Source: Aquidulcibacter paucihalophilus
GTDB lineage: Bacteria; Pseudomonadota; Alphaproteobacteria; Caulobacterales; Caulobacteraceae
Assembly: GCA_030285985.1 (NCBI GenBank)
Contig: CP127384.1
Location: 1,104,501-1,168,500, forward strand
Length of the DNA stretch: 64,000 bases
Direction of reading: 5' to 3'
This document shows positions 25,561-33,210 of the stretch, one piece after another; the stretch's first letter is position 1; each line of letters starts with the position of its first letter. Made by a program: the position numbers and the translations under genes. The notes under the pieces were generated by a model that saw only the letters and a program-made list of their open reading frames with translations, made no database searches and was not told the DNA's origin.

Positions 25561-26181
25561 ATGAAACTCTACACCTCCCACCGCGCGCCGAATCCGCGCC
25601 GGGTCCGCTGGGTCATGGCCGAAAAGGGGATCGAGGACGTCGAGGTGATCGAGGTCGACATCCTGACCGGCGAGCACAAGGCACCCGAATACCGCGCGCG
25701 CGTGGGCGTGCCGCACGTGCCGGCACTGGAACTGGATGACGGGACCACGATCTCGGAATCCGTGGCCATCTGCCGCTATCTGGAAGCCCTCTATCCCGAG
25801 CCCAACCTGTTCGGCCGCGACCCGCGGGAACTGGCGGTCGTCGAGATGTGGACGCGCCGCTGCGAATTCTATCTGGCCAATCCGATCATGCTGACCGTGC
25901 GCCATTCGCACCCGGCGCTGGCGGCGCTGGAAGCGGTCCAGATTCCGCAACTGGCCGAGTACAACAAGGTCGCCGCCGAGAAATTCATGAAGACCCTGGA
26001 CCGCAGGCTGTCGGAGCACGAGTTCCTCGCCGCGGACCGGTTCACCATCGCGGACGTCGTCGCCGTGGTCGGTCTGGATTTCGCACGGCTGATCAAATAC
26101 CGGCCGCCCGAGGAACTGACCCATCTGACGCGCTGGCTGGCGGAATGCCGGGCCCGGCCCGCGGCGGCGGCGGGCGCCTAG
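25561..26181 (+). CDS. Glutathione S-transferase family protein
   Basis: The 206-residue cytosolic protein has an N-terminal thioredoxin-fold domain (MKLYTSHRAPNPRRVRW, cis-proline in VPHVPALEL, then TISESVAICRYLEALYP). A helical C-terminal domain carries the FTIADVVAVVGLDFARL motif. It belongs to the broad GST group that conjugates glutathione or reduces peroxides; substrate unknown. A Ser near the N-terminus (Ser5) is the candidate catalytic residue. Confidence 0.92.
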   Translation: MKLYTSHRAPNPRRVRWVMAEKGIEDVEVIEVDILTGEHKAPEYRARVGVPHVPALELDDGTTISESVAICRYLEALYPEPNLFGRDPRELAVVEMWTRRCEFYLANPIMLTVRHSHPALAALEAVQIPQLAEYNKVAAEKFMKTLDRRLSEHEFLAADRFTIADVVAVVGLDFARLIKYRPPEELTHLTRWLAECRARPAAAAGA

Positions 26182-26185
26182 AACC

Positions 26186-27349
26186 TCAGTCCGGGGACCC
26201 GACCGGCGGCCCGTTCCACTCGATGTCGGCGGTCATGGCCGCGGTGAGCGAGCGGCCGGTCCGGAGCGCGCGAAGGGCAAAGGCGGCGGCGTCGGCCAGG
26301 GCGCCGAGGATCGGCCCCGGGTCGCCGGGCGCGGCGACGGCGTCGAAGCCCTGCTGTCCTTGTGCACGCCATGCCGCCAGCCGTCCGTCGCGCAGGGCGG
26401 TCGGCAGGCCGTGGAGCCAGAGCGCCGGGGACAGGTGGCGCGTCGCCGGGGCCGGCTCCGCCTCGCCGCGTCCCACCAGCGCCCGGCCGAATGCCGCGCT
26501 GCGACCGAACAGGTGGACGCCGCTGGTCGCGCGCGGATTGCACTCGATCAGCCACGGCTGTCCGTCGCCGTCGATAAGGACGTCGCAGGCGATCTGGCCC
26601 GTCCCGGCGAAGGCGGCCAGGGCCTCGGCCATGGGCCGTAGCCGCACGGTCACCTCCGGCGGCAGGGGCCGGAAGACGTAGCTGGCACCGCCGGACAGTC
26701 GCCAGTCCGAGCCATAGGCGCAGAAGGCGGTGACCCGTCCCTCGTTGCAGACGGCGTGGAAGCTGGCCTCCTCGCCGACGATGCGGCGCTGGGCGACCCA
26801 GGGTGCCGCCGGCGAGGGCGTAACGGCAGCGAGGGCGGCGGGCGTCGGCGCGATCAGGGTGCGGGTGCCGAAACGCGACCAGACCGGCTTGAACACATGG
26901 TCGGCGGCTTCGCCGGACAGGGCTTCCAGCGCCGCCCTGTCGGTGACAAGGGCGGTGTCCGGTACCGGCAGGCCGAGCCGACGGCACAGGGCGGCGAACC
27001 GGTCCTTGGCGTGCAGGGTCGCCAGCCGGTCCGGCGGCGGGGCGAACACCCGGTCGGAGATGCCGTCAGCCGCCGCCACGGCGGCGAGGTGGAACACCTC
27101 CTCGCAGGTCGGGATGATGCGCACGGGATCGAGCCGGTCGATCAGGTCGCGGATGTCGCGGGCGAAAGCGGCGGTGTGCTCGACCGGCGAGGCATGGCGA
27201 TGCACGGGGCCGGCGGTCCGGGACAGGCGCGCGACCCAGGCCGGACTGCAGTCGGCCAGATGCGGCTCATAGCCGGCGGCGCGCAGGCTGCGGGCGATGT
27301 CCAGCGCCGCCACGGCCCGGGCACCGGTGATCAGGACCCGCTCAGCCAT
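26186..27349 (-). CDS. ATP-grasp domain protein, last gene of the KAS III-MBL-adenylase cluster
   Basis: The 387-residue protein opens with a Rossmann-like pre-ATP-grasp domain (VLITGARAVAALDIARSL). It contains DHVFKPVWSRFGTRT and the metal-binding WLIECNPRATSG, so it should use ATP to join a carboxylate to an amine or another nucleophile via an acyl phosphate. The family resembles carbamoyl-phosphate-synthase-like ATP-grasp proteins, but no substrate can be assigned. It overlaps the adenylating-enzyme gene by eight bases and is the last of five coupled genes, so it probably performs a final ligation. Confidence 0.85.
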   Translation of the reverse strand: MAERVLITGARAVAALDIARSLRAAGYEPHLADCSPAWVARLSRTAGPVHRHASPVEHTAAFARDIRDLIDRLDPVRIIPTCEEVFHLAAVAAADGISDRVFAPPPDRLATLHAKDRFAALCRRLGLPVPDTALVTDRAALEALSGEAADHVFKPVWSRFGTRTLIAPTPAALAAVTPSPAAPWVAQRRIVGEEASFHAVCNEGRVTAFCAYGSDWRLSGGASYVFRPLPPEVTVRLRPMAEALAAFAGTGQIACDVLIDGDGQPWLIECNPRATSGVHLFGRSAAFGRALVGRGEAEPAPATRHLSPALWLHGLPTALRDGRLAAWRAQGQQGFDAVAAPGDPGPILGALADAAAFALRALRTGRSLTAAMTADIEWNGPPVGSPD

Positions 27350-28592
27350 CGGACCAGCGCACCCGCCGCCGTTTGACGCCGTCCCGCGTCGGGCGACCGC
27401 CGGCGGTCACGATGACATCCACGCCGTGCGCCGCCAGCAGGCCCGCGACGGCCGACCTTGCCGCTTCGACCCGATCCGGCTCGGCCTCGACCGTGACGCC
27501 TCCCGGCGAGGCGAGGGCGCGCCAGTCCTGGTCCGGACCGACGGCGGCGCTGACGACCGCTTCGACCTCGCGTGGGCAGATCGCGGCGCCCCGCCAGCGC
27601 CACAGGTCCTCCAGCCGGCCCTCGACCGGATGGACGGCGGTCCGCGGCGAGCCGCAGGGGCAGGGCGTCGCCAGCGGCTGCAGCAGGTCGGGCAGGCGGA
27701 CGCGGATCATCGGCTGGGTGGTGCGGCGCAGGTCGGTGACGATCGGCACGAACCGGCTGGTCCCTGGTACGGGTTCGCGCTCGACGATCAGGACGTCCTC
27801 ATTGAGGTGCAGCGTCCCGAAGCGACAGGCGGCACCGAGGAAGCCCTCGGTGGCCTGATAAATGGGGTCGGGCCGGACCCCGAGGGCCGCGCCGATCCAG
27901 CGGCGCTCGGCCTCGCCCATCGGCTCGGCACCATAGAACAGGCGGCGCAGCGGCCATGGCTGGGCCGTCCGGCGGGCGAGGTCCGCCAGAACCTGCGGGG
28001 GGGCGATCAGGGTGTCCGGGGCGAAGGCCCGCAGCCGTTCGAACCGCTGGGCGGCCGGGACATCGAGGCCGACGAACAGGAAGCGGATAGGGCCGGCCCT
28101 CTCCACATCGCCATACAGCCGGTTGTCTGCCCGCAGGCACAGGGCGATCCGCGTGGAGCGCAGCAGGGCGTCGGCCGGCAGCAGGCGGGCGAGGATGTGG
28201 CCGACCCAGCCGGCGCGCTCGACCGCGCTGGTCACGAACAGGCCGCGGCGTCCCGACGAGCCGGTGGAGAAGCCGGCGACGATCCCCGGCCGCACCTCGC
28301 CGGATCCGCCCGTCTCCGCCGTCAGGGCGGCGGTCTCGGTGCCGGGCCGTGTCAGGCCCAGGGTGTTCCAGGCGTCGAAGCGCTCGCGCAGGAGATCGGG
28401 CGACATGACCGGGAAGTCGGCCAGCGGACGGCCGGCGAGGGCGCTGACCGCCGGAGTGCGGGCGATGACAGGGGCCATGGCACGCCACAGCCGGGCCTGT
28501 CGCCGCGCAACATCGGCGGTGGTGCGCAGGCTCCAGCCGCTCCGGCGGGCGGCAAGCCAGGCCCGCAGAACCGCGAGGCGGTCAGTCTGCAC
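27342..28592 (-). CDS. PaaK/F390-synthetase-like adenylate-forming enzyme
   Basis: The 416-residue protein resembles phenylacetate-CoA ligase and coenzyme F390 synthetase-related proteins. It has the phosphate-binding loop FSTGSSGRRG, RLFYGAEPMGEAERR, the YQATEGFLG adenine motif and the VEGRLEDLWRWRG hinge region. A Cys-rich CPCGSP segment is present. It should activate a carboxylate as an acyl-adenylate. It starts with GTG at 28592 inside the 3' end of the MBL gene and overlaps the ATP-grasp gene. No F420 pathway is visible here, so F390 synthesis is unlikely. Confidence 0.82.
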   Translation of the reverse strand: MQTDRLAVLRAWLAARRSGWSLRTTADVARRQARLWRAMAPVIARTPAVSALAGRPLADFPVMSPDLLRERFDAWNTLGLTRPGTETAALTAETGGSGEVRPGIVAGFSTGSSGRRGLFVTSAVERAGWVGHILARLLPADALLRSTRIALCLRADNRLYGDVERAGPIRFLFVGLDVPAAQRFERLRAFAPDTLIAPPQVLADLARRTAQPWPLRRLFYGAEPMGEAERRWIGAALGVRPDPIYQATEGFLGAACRFGTLHLNEDVLIVEREPVPGTSRFVPIVTDLRRTTQPMIRVRLPDLLQPLATPCPCGSPRTAVHPVEGRLEDLWRWRGAAICPREVEAVVSAAVGPDQDWRALASPGGVTVEAEPDRVEAARSAVAGLLAAHGVDVIVTAGGRPTRDGVKRRRVRWSDG

Positions 28593-29430
28593 GGCCCGTC
28601 TCGACCTCGACCTCGACCTCGCCGCAGTGGGACGGGGTGATGAGCAGCTCGGGATTGCGCGCCCACAGCCGGTGCAGGGCGTTCAGGGTCTCTCGGTACG
28701 GGCCGGTCGCGCCCAGCAGGGCGGTGGTCAGGCGGGGCGGGGGGGCGTCGTCGCGTACGGCGCCGCTCGACCAGGCGGCGTCGGCGATCAGGAAGCGGGT
28801 CCGGTCATCGGCCTGCCGCACCAGAAGCCCCCAGTGGCCGGGGCAGTGGCCGGGCAGCTGGACCGCCAGCAGTGCGCCGTCTCCCAGCAGGTCCGCGCCG
28901 GTCTCGAACGGGGCCATGTCCGGGCCGAGGGGGACCTGCGGCCGGTCCTCGAAGAAGACCGCGCGAGCGGCGATGTCGGCCGGGGCGAGGGCGGCCAGTA
29001 CCCCGCGCCGGACGCGGTCGACCCGCCCCTTGCGCTGGACCTGCGCCAGTCCGGCGCGGGCGCAGACAATCCGGGCATTCGGAAAGCGGGTCAGACCCGC
29101 GATGTGGTCGCCGTGGAAATGGGAGACGACGACGGCGCGGATGTCGTCCGGCGCGAAGCCGAAGGCCGGCAGCTGGTCTGCGACGGCCTCGCCCGGGGCG
29201 AGGCTGACCGGCGTGGTCCAGCGGTAGAGGCGTTCCGGGAAGGGTTCGGTGGCGGTGAAGAAGGCGGGATCATAGCCGGTGTCGAACAGCATCGGGCCCT
29301 CATCCGGATGGACGATCAGGGCCGCCAGCGCCGGAAAGACGGCCGGCGCCAGACCTGCGTCATGGCGGGTCATGACGGCGGGATGCGAACAGGACCCGGC
29401 GCGCAGGATGTGGACGCGGCAGCGTTTCAC
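28582..29430 (-). CDS. MBL-fold metallo-hydrolase in the KAS III cluster
   Basis: The 282-residue metallo-beta-lactamase-fold hydrolase has the binuclear metal motif HFHGDH at residues 104-109, LFDTGYDP before it, LPGHCPGHWGL with the next histidine, and LIADAAW with the bridging aspartate. The group includes lactonases, thioesterases and other ester hydrolases, so release or lactone opening of a pathway intermediate is plausible. It starts with GTG at 29430 overlapping the upstream stop. The C-terminus carries a short Val-Glu repeat from a GACCTC hexamer. Confidence 0.88.
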   Translation of the reverse strand: MKRCRVHILRAGSCSHPAVMTRHDAGLAPAVFPALAALIVHPDEGPMLFDTGYDPAFFTATEPFPERLYRWTTPVSLAPGEAVADQLPAFGFAPDDIRAVVVSHFHGDHIAGLTRFPNARIVCARAGLAQVQRKGRVDRVRRGVLAALAPADIAARAVFFEDRPQVPLGPDMAPFETGADLLGDGALLAVQLPGHCPGHWGLLVRQADDRTRFLIADAAWSSGAVRDDAPPPRLTTALLGATGPYRETLNALHRLWARNPELLITPSHCGEVEVEVETGRAD

Positions 29431-30416
29431 GACGCCGCCAGCCCGGGCGCGACGGCCAGCGCCGTCTCCACCGCGTCGTGGGCCGGCTCATAGCCGAGCA
29501 GGCGACGGGCCTTGCCGAGATCAAAGGTCTGCGACCAGGCGAGGGTGGACAGGGTGTAGGGCGTCAGCACCGGCTCGGGCTGGCCCGGCAGGATGCGGCA
29601 CAGGGCGTCGGCCCCGACCGAAAGGGCCTGACCCAGGGCCAGCGGGAGGGAGACGATGCGGACCTCGACGCCAAGCGTCTGGCCCAGCCGGCCGACCAGC
29701 TCACGGACGGGCAGGGGCTGACCGCCGGTGATGTTGATCGCCTGCCCGCCGGCCGCTTCGCGGTGGACATCCGCCAGGCGGATCGCTCGGGCCGCGTCGC
29801 GCACATCGGTCATCTCGACCAGCGCCTGACCGTTACGGAAGAGGGGGAAGCGGCCTCGCTTCACCAGTCGCAGAATGCGCGGCAGCAGGACCGCGTCGTC
29901 GGGGCCGATAATGGCGCGCGGGCGGATGGAGATGGTGCGGAAGCCGGGCGCGTCCGCCGCGACCACGAGCCGTTCGGCCTCGCCCTTGGTGCGGGAATAG
30001 GCGTTCAGCGGCCGCGCGGGCCAGGGGGTGTCTTCGGTCAGTCCGGTCTGGTCGGCCCAGCGGGCGTAGACCGACGGAGACGAGACGAAGACGAACGACC
30101 CGACGCCCGAGCGGCGTGCGGCTGCCAGCAGGTCGCGCGTCAGATCGACATTGGCGCGCTGGAAGTCGGCGTCGGGACCCCAGGGGCTGGACAGGGCGGC
30201 GGCGTGGAAGACGACATCGATGTCCCTGCAGAGGGCGTCCGGACCGAGGTCGAAGAGATCGCCCTTCAGGGTCTCGGTGCCCATCGCGCCCAGGCGGGCA
30301 ATGGCAATGGGACTGCGGCCGGCGGCCCGCACCGAATAGCCGTCATCGAGCAGCGCCTGCGTCAGGGTCAGTCCGAGGCCGCCGGTCGCGCCGGTGACGA
30401 GCGCGCGCCGGGTCAC
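29427..30416 (-). CDS. NAD(P)-dependent epimerase/dehydratase (extended SDR) in the KAS III cluster
   Basis: The 329-residue extended short-chain dehydrogenase has ALVTGATGGLGLTL (nucleotide-binding), DVVFHAAALSS, VFVSSPSVY and the catalytic YSRTK. It is of the 3-beta-HSD/OleD-like type that reduces beta-keto acids or sterol-like ketones, so it likely reduces the product of the neighbouring condensing enzyme. The start GTG at 30416 overlaps the stop of that gene (GTGA); longer upstream extension is Arg/Pro-rich and not credible. The 3' end overlaps the MBL gene. Confidence 0.88.
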   Translation of the reverse strand: MTRRALVTGATGGLGLTLTQALLDDGYSVRAAGRSPIAIARLGAMGTETLKGDLFDLGPDALCRDIDVVFHAAALSSPWGPDADFQRANVDLTRDLLAAARRSGVGSFVFVSSPSVYARWADQTGLTEDTPWPARPLNAYSRTKGEAERLVVAADAPGFRTISIRPRAIIGPDDAVLLPRILRLVKRGRFPLFRNGQALVEMTDVRDAARAIRLADVHREAAGGQAINITGGQPLPVRELVGRLGQTLGVEVRIVSLPLALGQALSVGADALCRILPGQPEPVLTPYTLSTLAWSQTFDLGKARRLLGYEPAHDAVETALAVAPGLAAS

Positions 30417-31408
30417 GTCCTCAGCACCATGGCGGCGAGGCTGATCCCTGCCGCCGTGCCCAGCAGCAGGACGGTCTTGCCCGGACCGAGCCGCCCGGTC
30501 GCGTGCGCCTCGACCAGAACGGAGGGCAGGGAGGCCGCGATCTGGTTGCCCGTGGTGGCGAAGATGTCGACCACCCGGTCCGGATCGCCGCCCATCAGCC
30601 GGCGGGCGTGTTCGATCGCGGGCCGGCTGGCCTGATGGCCGACGATGACATCGACGCTCTCGCGGGTCAGGCCCGCCTCGCCGAGGACCCGATCGATCAG
30701 GGCGGGCAGGGTCCGCGAGGCTGCCTTGAAGATACCGAAGGGGTCCATCCGGAACCGGGCACCGTCGGCGAATGCTTCCAGTCCGTCGTCGAGGCGGACG
30801 CGGGTTCCGCCGGAGCGGACGGAGGCCAGATCCTTGCCCACGCCATAGGTCTCGAAACCGCGCGCCAGCAGACCCGGTCCGTGGGGGTCGGTACCGGCCT
30901 CGACACACACCGCGGCCGCGCCGTCGCCGAAGATGGCGGCGGAGGCGGGGGTGCCCCAGTCGAGGCCGCATGACGGAATGTCGCTGGAGACGATCAGGGC
31001 GCGCCGGAAGCGGCCGGCGGCGAAGCCCATGGCGACGACGTCGAGGGCGGCGACGAACGACAGGCAGGTCTGGTTGACGTCAAAGGCCCAGATGCCGGAC
31101 TGGCCGAGCCCCAGCGCCTCCTGGATCAGGACCGAGGCACCGGGGATGGGCTGTTCCATGACCCCGCAGGCGCCGACCAGCACGTCGATGTCGCCCGGCT
31201 CCCAGCCGGCCATCGCCAGGGCGCGTTTCGCGGCCTCGGCACCCATCATGGAGGTGGTCTCGTCCGGGGCGGCGACGCCGCGTGAGGCGATGCCGAACTG
31301 GGTCTCGGTCCAACCCGCCGGCTGGCCGAAGACGACGTCCAGCGCTTGCGAAGGCCGATGTTCACGCGGGGAATACGCCCCGAAGCCGGCCAGGATCATT
31401 GGCGTCAT
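30413..31408 (-). CDS. Beta-ketoacyl synthase III-like condensing enzyme
   Basis: The 331-residue thiolase-fold protein is related to FabH, OleA and other KAS III enzymes. The Cys-His-Asn triad is intact: Cys115 in NQTCLSF, His258 in VGHQASRP, Asn288 in TTGNQIA, and the glycine-rich end GTAAGISLAAM is present. It should condense an acyl thioester with a second acyl unit. It is the first of five overlapping genes. No acyl carrier protein gene is nearby, which argues for acyl-CoA or the housekeeping ACP as substrate. ATG at 31399 is an alternative start. Confidence 0.88.
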   Translation of the reverse strand: MTPMILAGFGAYSPREHRPSQALDVVFGQPAGWTETQFGIASRGVAAPDETTSMMGAEAAKRALAMAGWEPGDIDVLVGACGVMEQPIPGASVLIQEALGLGQSGIWAFDVNQTCLSFVAALDVVAMGFAAGRFRRALIVSSDIPSCGLDWGTPASAAIFGDGAAAVCVEAGTDPHGPGLLARGFETYGVGKDLASVRSGGTRVRLDDGLEAFADGARFRMDPFGIFKAASRTLPALIDRVLGEAGLTRESVDVIVGHQASRPAIEHARRLMGGDPDRVVDIFATTGNQIAASLPSVLVEAHATGRLGPGKTVLLLGTAAGISLAAMVLRT

Positions 31409-31456
31409 CGGGTCAGGTTAGCCTTGCCGTTGGACGGCGTCCATGCGCCCGCGGCG

Positions 31457-32164
31457 TCAGTCCTGATGCTCGATCACATGCTGTCCGCGCACCATCCGGA
31501 CATAGGGCAGGGGCCGGTCGGGGTGGGACAGACGCTCGCCCACCTCCCCCAGCACGAAGCGGGTGATGGCCGGCAGGTCCAGCGACCGGGTGTCGGCCAG
31601 CGGAAGCCAGGCGATCTCGTCCAGTTCGCCCGAACCGGCGGTCGGCTCGGGATGCAGCAGCGCCCGCGCGTCCGCCATGAAGAAGCGGGCGTCGAAGCGG
31701 CGGGTCCGTCCGGGCGGGGTGATGGCGCGGGCGACATAGGACAGGGCGGCCAGATCGGGCAGGGCCCCGACGGCCCGGAACTCGCGCCATGAACCGGCGA
31801 CGGAGGCGAAGGGCGCGGGCTCTGCCAGCAGCAGGCCGGTCTCCTCGAAGGTCTCGCGCACCGCGGTCAGGGCGAGGGCGCGGGCGCGGCGGGCGGGCAC
31901 CTCGCGCATCAGCCGGGCGGTGTCCGGTGCGGGCAGGTCATTGGCCGAGGCGGCGGTGAAATCAGAGCGATCGATCCGACCGCCCGGAAAGACCCATTTG
32001 GCGGCCATGAAGACGTGGCCGGGCGCGCGGCGACCCATCAGCACCTCGGCCTGCCCCTTGCGGACCCGGGTCAGGATCAGGGTGGCGGCGTCCTTGGGCG
32101 TCTGTCGGCCGCCCACGCGCGGGGCGTCGGTGAGGTCGCGGATCGAGTCGAAAGGCGTGGCCAT
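31457..32164 (-). CDS. NUDIX hydrolase
   Basis: The 235-residue protein hydrolyses a nucleoside-diphosphate-linked compound or CoA. The NUDIX box is present but split by an insertion of about 30 residues: VFPGGRID, then a variable segment, then ALTAVRETFEETGLLL with the metal-binding REXXEE core. This split is known in a subgroup of alphaproteobacterial NUDIX proteins. The start ATG at 32164 yields MATPFDSIRDL; upstream extension is not protein-like. It ends 48 bases before the KAS III gene and could be on the same transcript. Confidence 0.9.
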   Translation of the reverse strand: MATPFDSIRDLTDAPRVGGRQTPKDAATLILTRVRKGQAEVLMGRRAPGHVFMAAKWVFPGGRIDRSDFTAASANDLPAPDTARLMREVPARRARALALTAVRETFEETGLLLAEPAPFASVAGSWREFRAVGALPDLAALSYVARAITPPGRTRRFDARFFMADARALLHPEPTAGSGELDEIAWLPLADTRSLDLPAITRFVLGEVGERLSHPDRPLPYVRMVRGQHVIEHQD

Positions 32165-32211
32165 GCCCGGCCATAGCACGCGTGCCGGCCGGCGGAAGAC
32201 TGGCCGGACGA

Positions 32212-33210
32212 TCAGTCGTCGATCCGCGTTCCGGTCAGGATCAGAACGGAGAGGTCGTCGGTCGGCGTATAGTTGCGGCGCCGGATTTCGAACCGGGTCG
32301 AACTGATCTTGCGCACGCCCTCGCCGCAAAAACTGACCAGGTTGCGGGAAGACCCCTTGTCCACGACCAGCCGGAAGTCGCCGATGGGCTCAGCCCAGTT
32401 GGCGCCTGTGGTCAGGATGTAGTCGACCCAGGTCTCGCTCAGATACAGGCCGCGCGACCGCATGCGCCGCGCGCCGGCCTGGAAGGCGTCGTCAGTGCAA
32501 TACCGGGTGGCCTGCTCGTTGTTGTGCTCGTTCCCGGCCATCATGGGATCGCCGAACACGCTGCCCGCCGATCCGCCGACGGCCGGCGCATACTGGTGCC
32601 GGACGTCGAGTTCACGCCCCGCCGGAAAAACCTGGGTCCAGTAGTGGGTCGTCTTGAGCGTCCAGAGGGGGGCCAGCTCCACGGTGCGAACGCCCCGGTC
32701 GGTCCAGGAACGGTCCTCGACCAGACCCATCTCGATCAGCATCTCGATCTGGGGCCGGGGCAGGGTCGCCAGCGCCTGCATCGTCGCCTCACCGCGGGGG
32801 GAGAGCGGGACGCCCAGACCGCGCATCATGTCGGAGTGATCGACGCCGTTGAACACGGCCTTCTGCTCGACATTGGTCGCCACGCGGCGGCCGTTCACCG
32901 TGGTGGTGAAGGGCATCCGCAGCGGGTCCTCGATCGCAACGTCGCTCTCGATGCCGCCCTGCAGGTCGGGCATGGGAAAGGCCACGAGCGTCGCGATGTC
33001 GCGTTCGGTGCGATTGTAGAAGCGGTAGCGGACGCGGATCTCGGCGGCCGAGACATATAGGTCCTCGGACCGCATCTCGATGCCGTCGGTACGCTGCAGG
33101 ACGAGTCCGCCGGCGCCCATGGAGGCGACGCTGTCGTTTGCCGCGGCCGGCGCGGCGAGCAGGATGGCGGCCAGCACGGCGGCGACGCCCCGGTTCAGTC
33201 TGATCATCAT
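32212..33210 (-). CDS. DUF4424 secreted protein
   Basis: The 332-residue protein has a signal peptide (VAAVLAAILLAAPAAA, cleavage before NDS) and a DUF4424 body, recognisable from NDSVASMGAGGLVL, SEDLYVSAAEIRVRYRFYN, TTVNGRRV and WTQVFPAGRELDVRHQY. It is probably periplasmic and beta-rich. The function is unknown; in related genomes it is usually a stand-alone gene. An ATG three bases later (33207) is equally possible given the GGAGGAC signal. Confidence 0.87.
   Translation of the reverse strand: MMIRLNRGVAAVLAAILLAAPAAANDSVASMGAGGLVLQRTDGIEMRSEDLYVSAAEIRVRYRFYNRTERDIATLVAFPMPDLQGGIESDVAIEDPLRMPFTTTVNGRRVATNVEQKAVFNGVDHSDMMRGLGVPLSPRGEATMQALATLPRPQIEMLIEMGLVEDRSWTDRGVRTVELAPLWTLKTTHYWTQVFPAGRELDVRHQYAPAVGGSAGSVFGDPMMAGNEHNNEQATRYCTDDAFQAGARRMRSRGLYLSETWVDYILTTGANWAEPIGDFRLVVDKGSSRNLVSFCGEGVRKISSTRFEIRRRNYTPTDDLSVLILTGTRIDD

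Follow-up and report, generated by a model that had tools for sequence, protein, structure and literature searches.

A five-gene overlapping operon of Aquidulcibacter paucihalophilus and its recurrent four-enzyme core, a candidate cassette for a small lipid-type pathway

The genome of Aquidulcibacter paucihalophilus (assembly GCA_030285985.1) consists of a single contig, CP127384.1, of 3.10 Mb. The window analysed here is the 64,000-nucleotide stretch from position 1,104,501 to 1,168,500 of this contig, and feature coordinates below are window positions. Between 26186 and 31408 it carries five overlapping genes, all on the minus strand. They encode, in order, a condensing enzyme of the beta-ketoacyl synthase III family (KAS, 30413..31408, ATG start), an extended, OleD-like short-chain dehydrogenase/reductase (SDR, 29427..30416, GTG start read from the DNA), a metallo-beta-lactamase-fold hydrolase (MBL, 28582..29430, GTG start), a PaaK/F390-like adenylate-forming enzyme (ADE, 27342..28592, GTG start) and a PRK06849-like ATP-grasp ligase (GRASP, 26186..27349, ATG start). 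Successive genes overlap by 4, 4, 11 and 8 bases, in the order and within the range of 4 to 11 bases given in a preliminary description of this DNA. That description saw in the genes a single undescribed pathway that copies the logic of OleA, OleD and OleC and adds an ATP-grasp ligase. Our analysis upholds the conserved unit, the intact catalytic sites, the lack of an adjoining acyl carrier protein (ACP) and the undescribed status, but neither the OleA logic nor the view that an ATP-grasp ligase was added to the core. Literature searches of mostly open-access work brought up no paper on the operon. We conclude that the pathway cassette is real, recurrent and, as far as that literature goes, undescribed.

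Related loci were gathered by scanning genome contigs with an alignment of 14 ADE proteins. One peptide pattern gave 540 relatives, of which the best 80 by similarity were kept, so the sample leans to ADE-like loci. Starting from the window proteins, profiles were refined on the 80 loci, and their matches were counted above 150 bits. KAS, SDR and MBL are each found at 76 of the 80 loci, and KAS, SDR, MBL and ADE occur together at 62 of the 68 loci whose sequence reaches 4.5 kb ahead of ADE and 2.5 kb beyond it. The gene orders are KAS-SDR-MBL-ADE-GRASP (29 loci), KAS-SDR-MBL-ADE (18), SDR-MBL-ADE-KAS (10), KAS-GRASP-SDR-MBL-ADE (6) and nine others (17). SDR is followed by MBL in 68 pairs, overlapping in 59 and less than 60 bases apart in the remaining 9; the overlaps are approximate, since start codons were chosen by rule. 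Record titles name Alpha-, Beta- and Gammaproteobacteria, Clostridium, Paenibacillus, Enterococcus, Streptococcus, Propionibacteriaceae, Gastranaerophilales and Verrucomicrobiales. The proteins also diverge together: pairwise distances among the five correlate with r from 0.78 (MBL-ADE) to 0.93 (SDR-GRASP) over 37 to 66 dereplicated loci, a correlation to which shared species history contributes, and for each of the ten protein pairs none of 500 permutations was as high. The four core genes thus recur jointly in distant genomes, as one would expect of the single unit that had been proposed, and we consider it highly probable that they form a conserved biosynthetic unit.

KAS matches Pfam PF08541 and PF08545, and its triad C115-H258-N288 is kept in 77 of 77 proteins. 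It is distinct from the housekeeping FabH: on the FabH model TIGR00747 it scores 169.7 bits against a cut-off of 292.1, whereas a separate FabH at 1.609 Mb of the same genome passes with 402.1 bits. Across five genomes, the KAS profile gives the operon copy 470-472 bits in the three carriers, FabH 228-232 bits in four genomes (149 for a partial match in the fifth) and other proteins at most 94. The window's own genome also encodes a third KAS III-like protein (L003, G000:C1:2584522-2585346; PF08541, 63 bits; open frame of 709 aa), whose counterparts score 90-94 bits in the other four genomes.

The nearest solved relatives of KAS are MxnB (340 bits) and CorB (330 bits), the next scoring 281. 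According to PMC4578411, OleA E117 and PpyS E105 are the base in head-to-head condensation, while MxnB and CorB have V94 in place of the glutamate and an alpha-carbon flanked by two carbonyls; according to PMC5724707, MxnB binds and joins two long chains. MxnB and CorB act at the end of large polyketide synthase (PKS) and nonribosomal peptide synthetase (NRPS) pathways with carrier proteins, whereas no PKS, NRPS or ACP was seen here. Position 88 of KAS, aligned with MxnB V94 and through it with OleA E117 (OleA itself being absent from the alignment), is I in 61, L in 13 and M in 3 of the 77 proteins and never glutamate. KAS therefore shares with MxnB and CorB both the Cys-His-Asn triad and a non-acidic residue at this site, and the idea that it copies OleA is not supported; the substitution suggests a malonyl or beta-ketoacyl nucleophile. 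PqsD chains (3h76) are also among the matches of KAS to solved structures. In alkylquinolone synthesis, PqsD and PqsE provide a KAS III enzyme and then an MBL-fold thioesterase, a succession of enzyme classes like that of KAS and MBL; the cassette differs in continuing with SDR and a re-activating ligase.

SDR (PF01370) keeps S112, Y140 and K144 in 77 of 77 proteins and is a predicted beta-keto reductase. Its best NCBIfam model is OleD, so the likeness to OleD holds as far as the nearest model goes, but at 179 bits it lies far under the cut-off of 580. MBL (PF00753) is a predicted thioester or lactone hydrolase with a full metal-binding set, its dinuclear ligands H104, H106, D108, H109, H195 and D217 being kept in 77 of 77 proteins and H268 in all 76 with a letter there. 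Its best NCBIfam models are the N-acyl homoserine lactone (AHL) lactonase AttM and 4-pyridoxolactonase, and its nearest solved relatives are AHL lactonases (AiiA, AttM, GcL) and 4-pyridoxolactonase, with which it shares HxHxDH, H195, D217 and H268. It differs from them in passing none of the lactonase models (41-75 bits against cut-offs of 325-475; best 75 against 390) and in having Trp at position 220 (76 of 77), where AiiA, not aligned here, presumably has its catalytic Tyr. In five genomes, the MBL profile gives the operon copy 384-387 bits and proteins elsewhere at most 70.

ADE has no Pfam match at E 0.001. Its best model is TIGR02304 (F390 synthetase-related), which it fails with 203.9 bits against a cut-off of 251.9; its E. 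coli and Streptococcus relatives pass. Foldseek matches indicate that ADE has the PaaK fold with both domains. It stands apart from TIGR02304 and the PaaK-type AMP ligases (PaaK, NatL2, AjiA1, ClxA) by that score and by an identity of only 18% to the PaaK-like BT_0428. G107, S109, G111, Y245, E249, C256, H262, C311 and C313 are kept in 81 of 81 proteins, and K407 near the C-terminus in all 78 with a letter. Five relatives (P0023, P0028, P0042, P0079 and P0112) bear the database name 'cell division protein FtsA', a misnaming that the NCBIfam model for true F390 synthetase, F390_ftsA, may explain. Among papers that mention F390 synthetase, three have it in table rows or lists, for Pseudomonas syringae pv. 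actinidiae in a transposon screen (PMC9823363), for Acinetobacter (PMC5501837) and for P. aeruginosa (PMC5467263), and PMC2649909 notes a ligase gene in type II fatty acid synthesis (FASII) clusters.

GRASP falls below its best model, PRK06849 (235.8 bits, cut-off 406), and keeps K154 in 44 of 44 proteins, D256 and N271 in 43 of 43, K115 in 43 of 44 and E269 in 42 of 43. Taken with the residues of the other four enzymes, whose catalytic roles are established knowledge, this conservation across relatives supports the claim that the catalytic motifs of all five are intact. GRASP is present at 43 of the 80 loci and counts as one of several alternative neighbours, not as a gene added to the core. 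Genes lying within 6 kb were grouped into families, and annotation of a single representative per family brought out three finishing sets (counts in brackets). Two families, a GNAT-like protein (17) and a Rieske/VanA_C oxygenase (25), occur solely at GRASP loci. The second set comprises a fatty acid desaturase (11), PAP2 (10) and FA_hydroxylase (12), and the third GT28-like (14) and GT21 (5) glycosyltransferases and a family, f20 (5), without Pfam or NCBIfam match; neither occurs with GRASP, and the two meet at one locus only, L113. No finishing set is visible at 9 of the 80 loci, some of them cut by contig ends. The label 'GNAT-like' is the RefSeq name of a gene in the same position, carried over by position and not by homology; the family profile found no relative among solved structures (best E 0.4), and neither Pfam nor NCBIfam matches its member. 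A Rieske oxygenase gene follows the ATP-grasp gene in the sister clade of the window clade, which itself has GRASP but no Rieske gene; a search of the window's own genome for the Rieske partner gave partial matches only, at E 2e-13 or weaker. Three Asticcacaulis loci (L066, L069 and L070) have KAS-ADE-GRASP with no SDR or MBL alongside. At L125 (5509-7115, a Ketogulonicigenium plasmid) and L126 (5499-7158, a Paracoccus plasmid), the four core genes lie downstream of a divergent TetR regulator and a sulfotransferase, possibly a fourth finishing set.

The second set was also met in E. coli strain KE48, found by a plasmid search, where PAP2, sterol-desaturase-family and acyl-CoA desaturase genes follow the core. 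Of 5426 complete E. coli genomes, 672 (about one in eight) carry the 6.9 kb KE48 region, 671 of them over at least 80% of its length. In EC958 (ST131) it sits between narI and tRNA-Tyr/purU, the one site examined in MG1655, which has ychS, rttR/tpr and tRNAs there instead.

The statement that no ACP is nearby also stands. The genome has two PP-binding matches, each more than 570 kb from the window, and a regular expression that recovers both of these proteins, applied to open reading frames (ORFs) of 60-140 aa at the 80 loci, gave one match, judged by eye not to be an ACP. A hidden ACP beside the genes was accordingly rejected.

The core of KAS, SDR, MBL and ADE thus recurs as a set and co-diverges, and no locus combines the ATP-grasp set with either of the others. 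In our view the operon functions as a short pathway of lipid or polyketide type that parallels Ole and MxnB/CorB. Our best explanation, held tentatively and with a little less than even confidence, is that it forms a cassette for making a small lipid-type product. KAS would load a chain on Cys115 and condense it with a malonyl or beta-ketoacyl thioester, the carriers being the cell's own ACP or coenzyme A (CoA). The later steps follow from the enzyme families: SDR would reduce the beta-keto group, MBL would hydrolyse the thioester to a free hydroxy acid, and ADE would adenylate this acid and pass it to a thiol or amine. In the window lineage, GRASP would then ligate or prepare an amine-bearing head group, and an acyl-amide is a possible product. 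In clusters of the E. coli type, the chain would instead be modified by the desaturase, fatty-acid hydroxylase and PAP2 phosphatase, and in streptococcal or actinobacterial clusters it would be glycosylated. This order of steps is as provisional as the lipid reading itself, if not slightly more so. More speculative again, though possible, is that the core makes a new class of bacterial lipid scaffold common to distant phyla, with head groups or chain changes specific to each lineage. Loci with ATP-grasp, GNAT-like and Rieske genes would link it to an amine, those of the E. coli type would desaturate and hydroxylate it, and streptococcal and actinobacterial ones would glycosylate it. If the core, for which no function was found in print, does make a lipid, this lipid has been overlooked in well-studied bacteria: besides its spread over distant phyla, the core is present in oral streptococci and in E. 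coli genomes that include ST131 EC958. The alternative finishing sets allow a direct comparison of one core with three predicted product classes.

Several points weigh against the lipid-pathway reading. Its weakest link is MBL, which by sequence resembles lactonases rather than known thioesterases, while the pathway logic wants a thioesterase. The reading gives no reason for two carboxylate-activating enzymes, ADE and GRASP. What points to a lipid is the neighbouring genes elsewhere, in other genomes, and the window has none of them. The core is also not absolute, as six of the 68 loci miss members in view: SDR and MBL at L066, L069 and L070, MBL at L077, and KAS at L089 and L103. Finally, the MBL-ADE correlation is the lowest of the pairs.

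A parallel version of the Ole pathway, in which KAS joins two acyl chains, SDR reduces the product, ADE forms a beta-lactone ring and MBL then opens or decarboxylates this lactone to give a hydrocarbon or beta-lactone lipid, is unlikely. It would suit the condense, reduce and adenylate steps shared with OleABCD, the nearness of SDR to OleD, the lactonase-like MBL and the relation of KAS to MxnB, which joins two long chains. The glutamate of OleA and PpyS is nevertheless absent throughout, MBL occupies the place of the alpha/beta hydrolase OleB (not found by Pfam among the five genes), and an amine-type finishing set needs the carboxylate that decarboxylation would remove. Nor is the logic of OleC borne out, for ADE is of the PaaK type and has no Pfam family match, whereas OleC carries PF00501 (AMP-binding). 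Full Ole membership was rejected on the KAS glutamate, the SDR score and the missing Pfam match of ADE, and by these tests the operon does not belong to the Ole family.

Equally improbable is a diffusible signal or small lactone or pyrone made by KAS and SDR, with MBL as a lactonase that limits or recycles it. The nearest relatives of MBL (AHL lactonases and 4-pyridoxolactonase) and of KAS (the pyrone-forming MxnB and CorB) agree with it; however, no conserved receptor or regulator gene is among the recurrent neighbours listed, the desaturase, hydroxylase, PAP2 and glycosyltransferase sets fit a lipid better, and ADE, as conserved as the other core genes, requires a free acid. We give very little weight to a catabolic operon in which a lactone is opened by MBL, its hydroxyl oxidised by SDR and the acid activated by ADE before KAS cleaves: MBL and PaaK-like enzymes are frequent in catabolism, but KAS III enzymes condense while thiolases cleave, the neighbours are anabolic in type, and no transporter is among the neighbour families annotated. 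Chance neighbours with KAS as a spare FabH, conceivable in that all five proteins come from large superfamilies, are refuted by the recurrence in distant genomes and rejected also on the co-divergence, the TIGR00747 scores of KAS and the genome's own FabH, and the separation of operon copies from other proteins by the family profiles.

Within the genus, 7 of 37 genomes have ADE, the window's own included; elsewhere in the order it is present in 1 of 24. Among 398 genomes drawn from the phylum, 14 reach E 1e-30 with the ADE profile and 10 exceed 390 bits, counts that may be low since few candidates per genome were scored. The upstream edge is the 48-base gap between the stop codon of a NUDIX gene on the same strand and the KAS start (31409..31456), and the downstream edge lies at 26179..26211, where GRASP ends toward a convergent glutathione S-transferase (GST) gene, the stop codons being 4 bases apart. 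Among 30 NUDIX loci, KAS lies beside NUDIX in 4 and GST in 2 (L131 and L132), and 24 are without operon, GST or next gene. In these last two, the match to the window breaks off at 31457 or 31459 and is regained at 26211 or 26179; between the two points lie 20 and 226 bases of other sequence. Neither of their genomes (G310 and G119) has ADE, an operon-type MBL or a KAS that scores above FabH level, so a unit of about 5.25 kb is absent there as a whole. G325 has all five genes, with ADE apart on the opposite strand, a rearrangement that short flanks had made look like a lone ADE (L041). A FastTree tree built on the four core proteins, concatenated for 72 loci including the window, places Halomonas copies among alphaproteobacterial ones, which suggests transfer. 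The G+C content at third codon positions of the five genes (0.88-0.90) lies inside the range of ten neighbours (0.83-0.91), so codon use gives no mark of recent transfer. Overall G+C content, taken over the window in 2 kb steps, nonetheless peaks in the operon, at 0.747 and 0.736 over 26001-30000.

NUDIX was rejected as a functional part of the cassette. Its family is near the core at 4 of the 80 loci, all close relatives; 55 of 61 relatives have NUDIX, but ADE is present in only 8 of these relatives. The listed start of the NUDIX ORF (31457-32329) is probably too early: most of the listed relatives match from about residue 53-58, and where matches run longer, stop codons interrupt several of them. 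A lone F390 synthetase-related gene lies amid hypotheticals on the Pseudomonas amygdali plasmid pMPPla107 (L123, 9893-11191), with no core partner annotated within about 10 kb.

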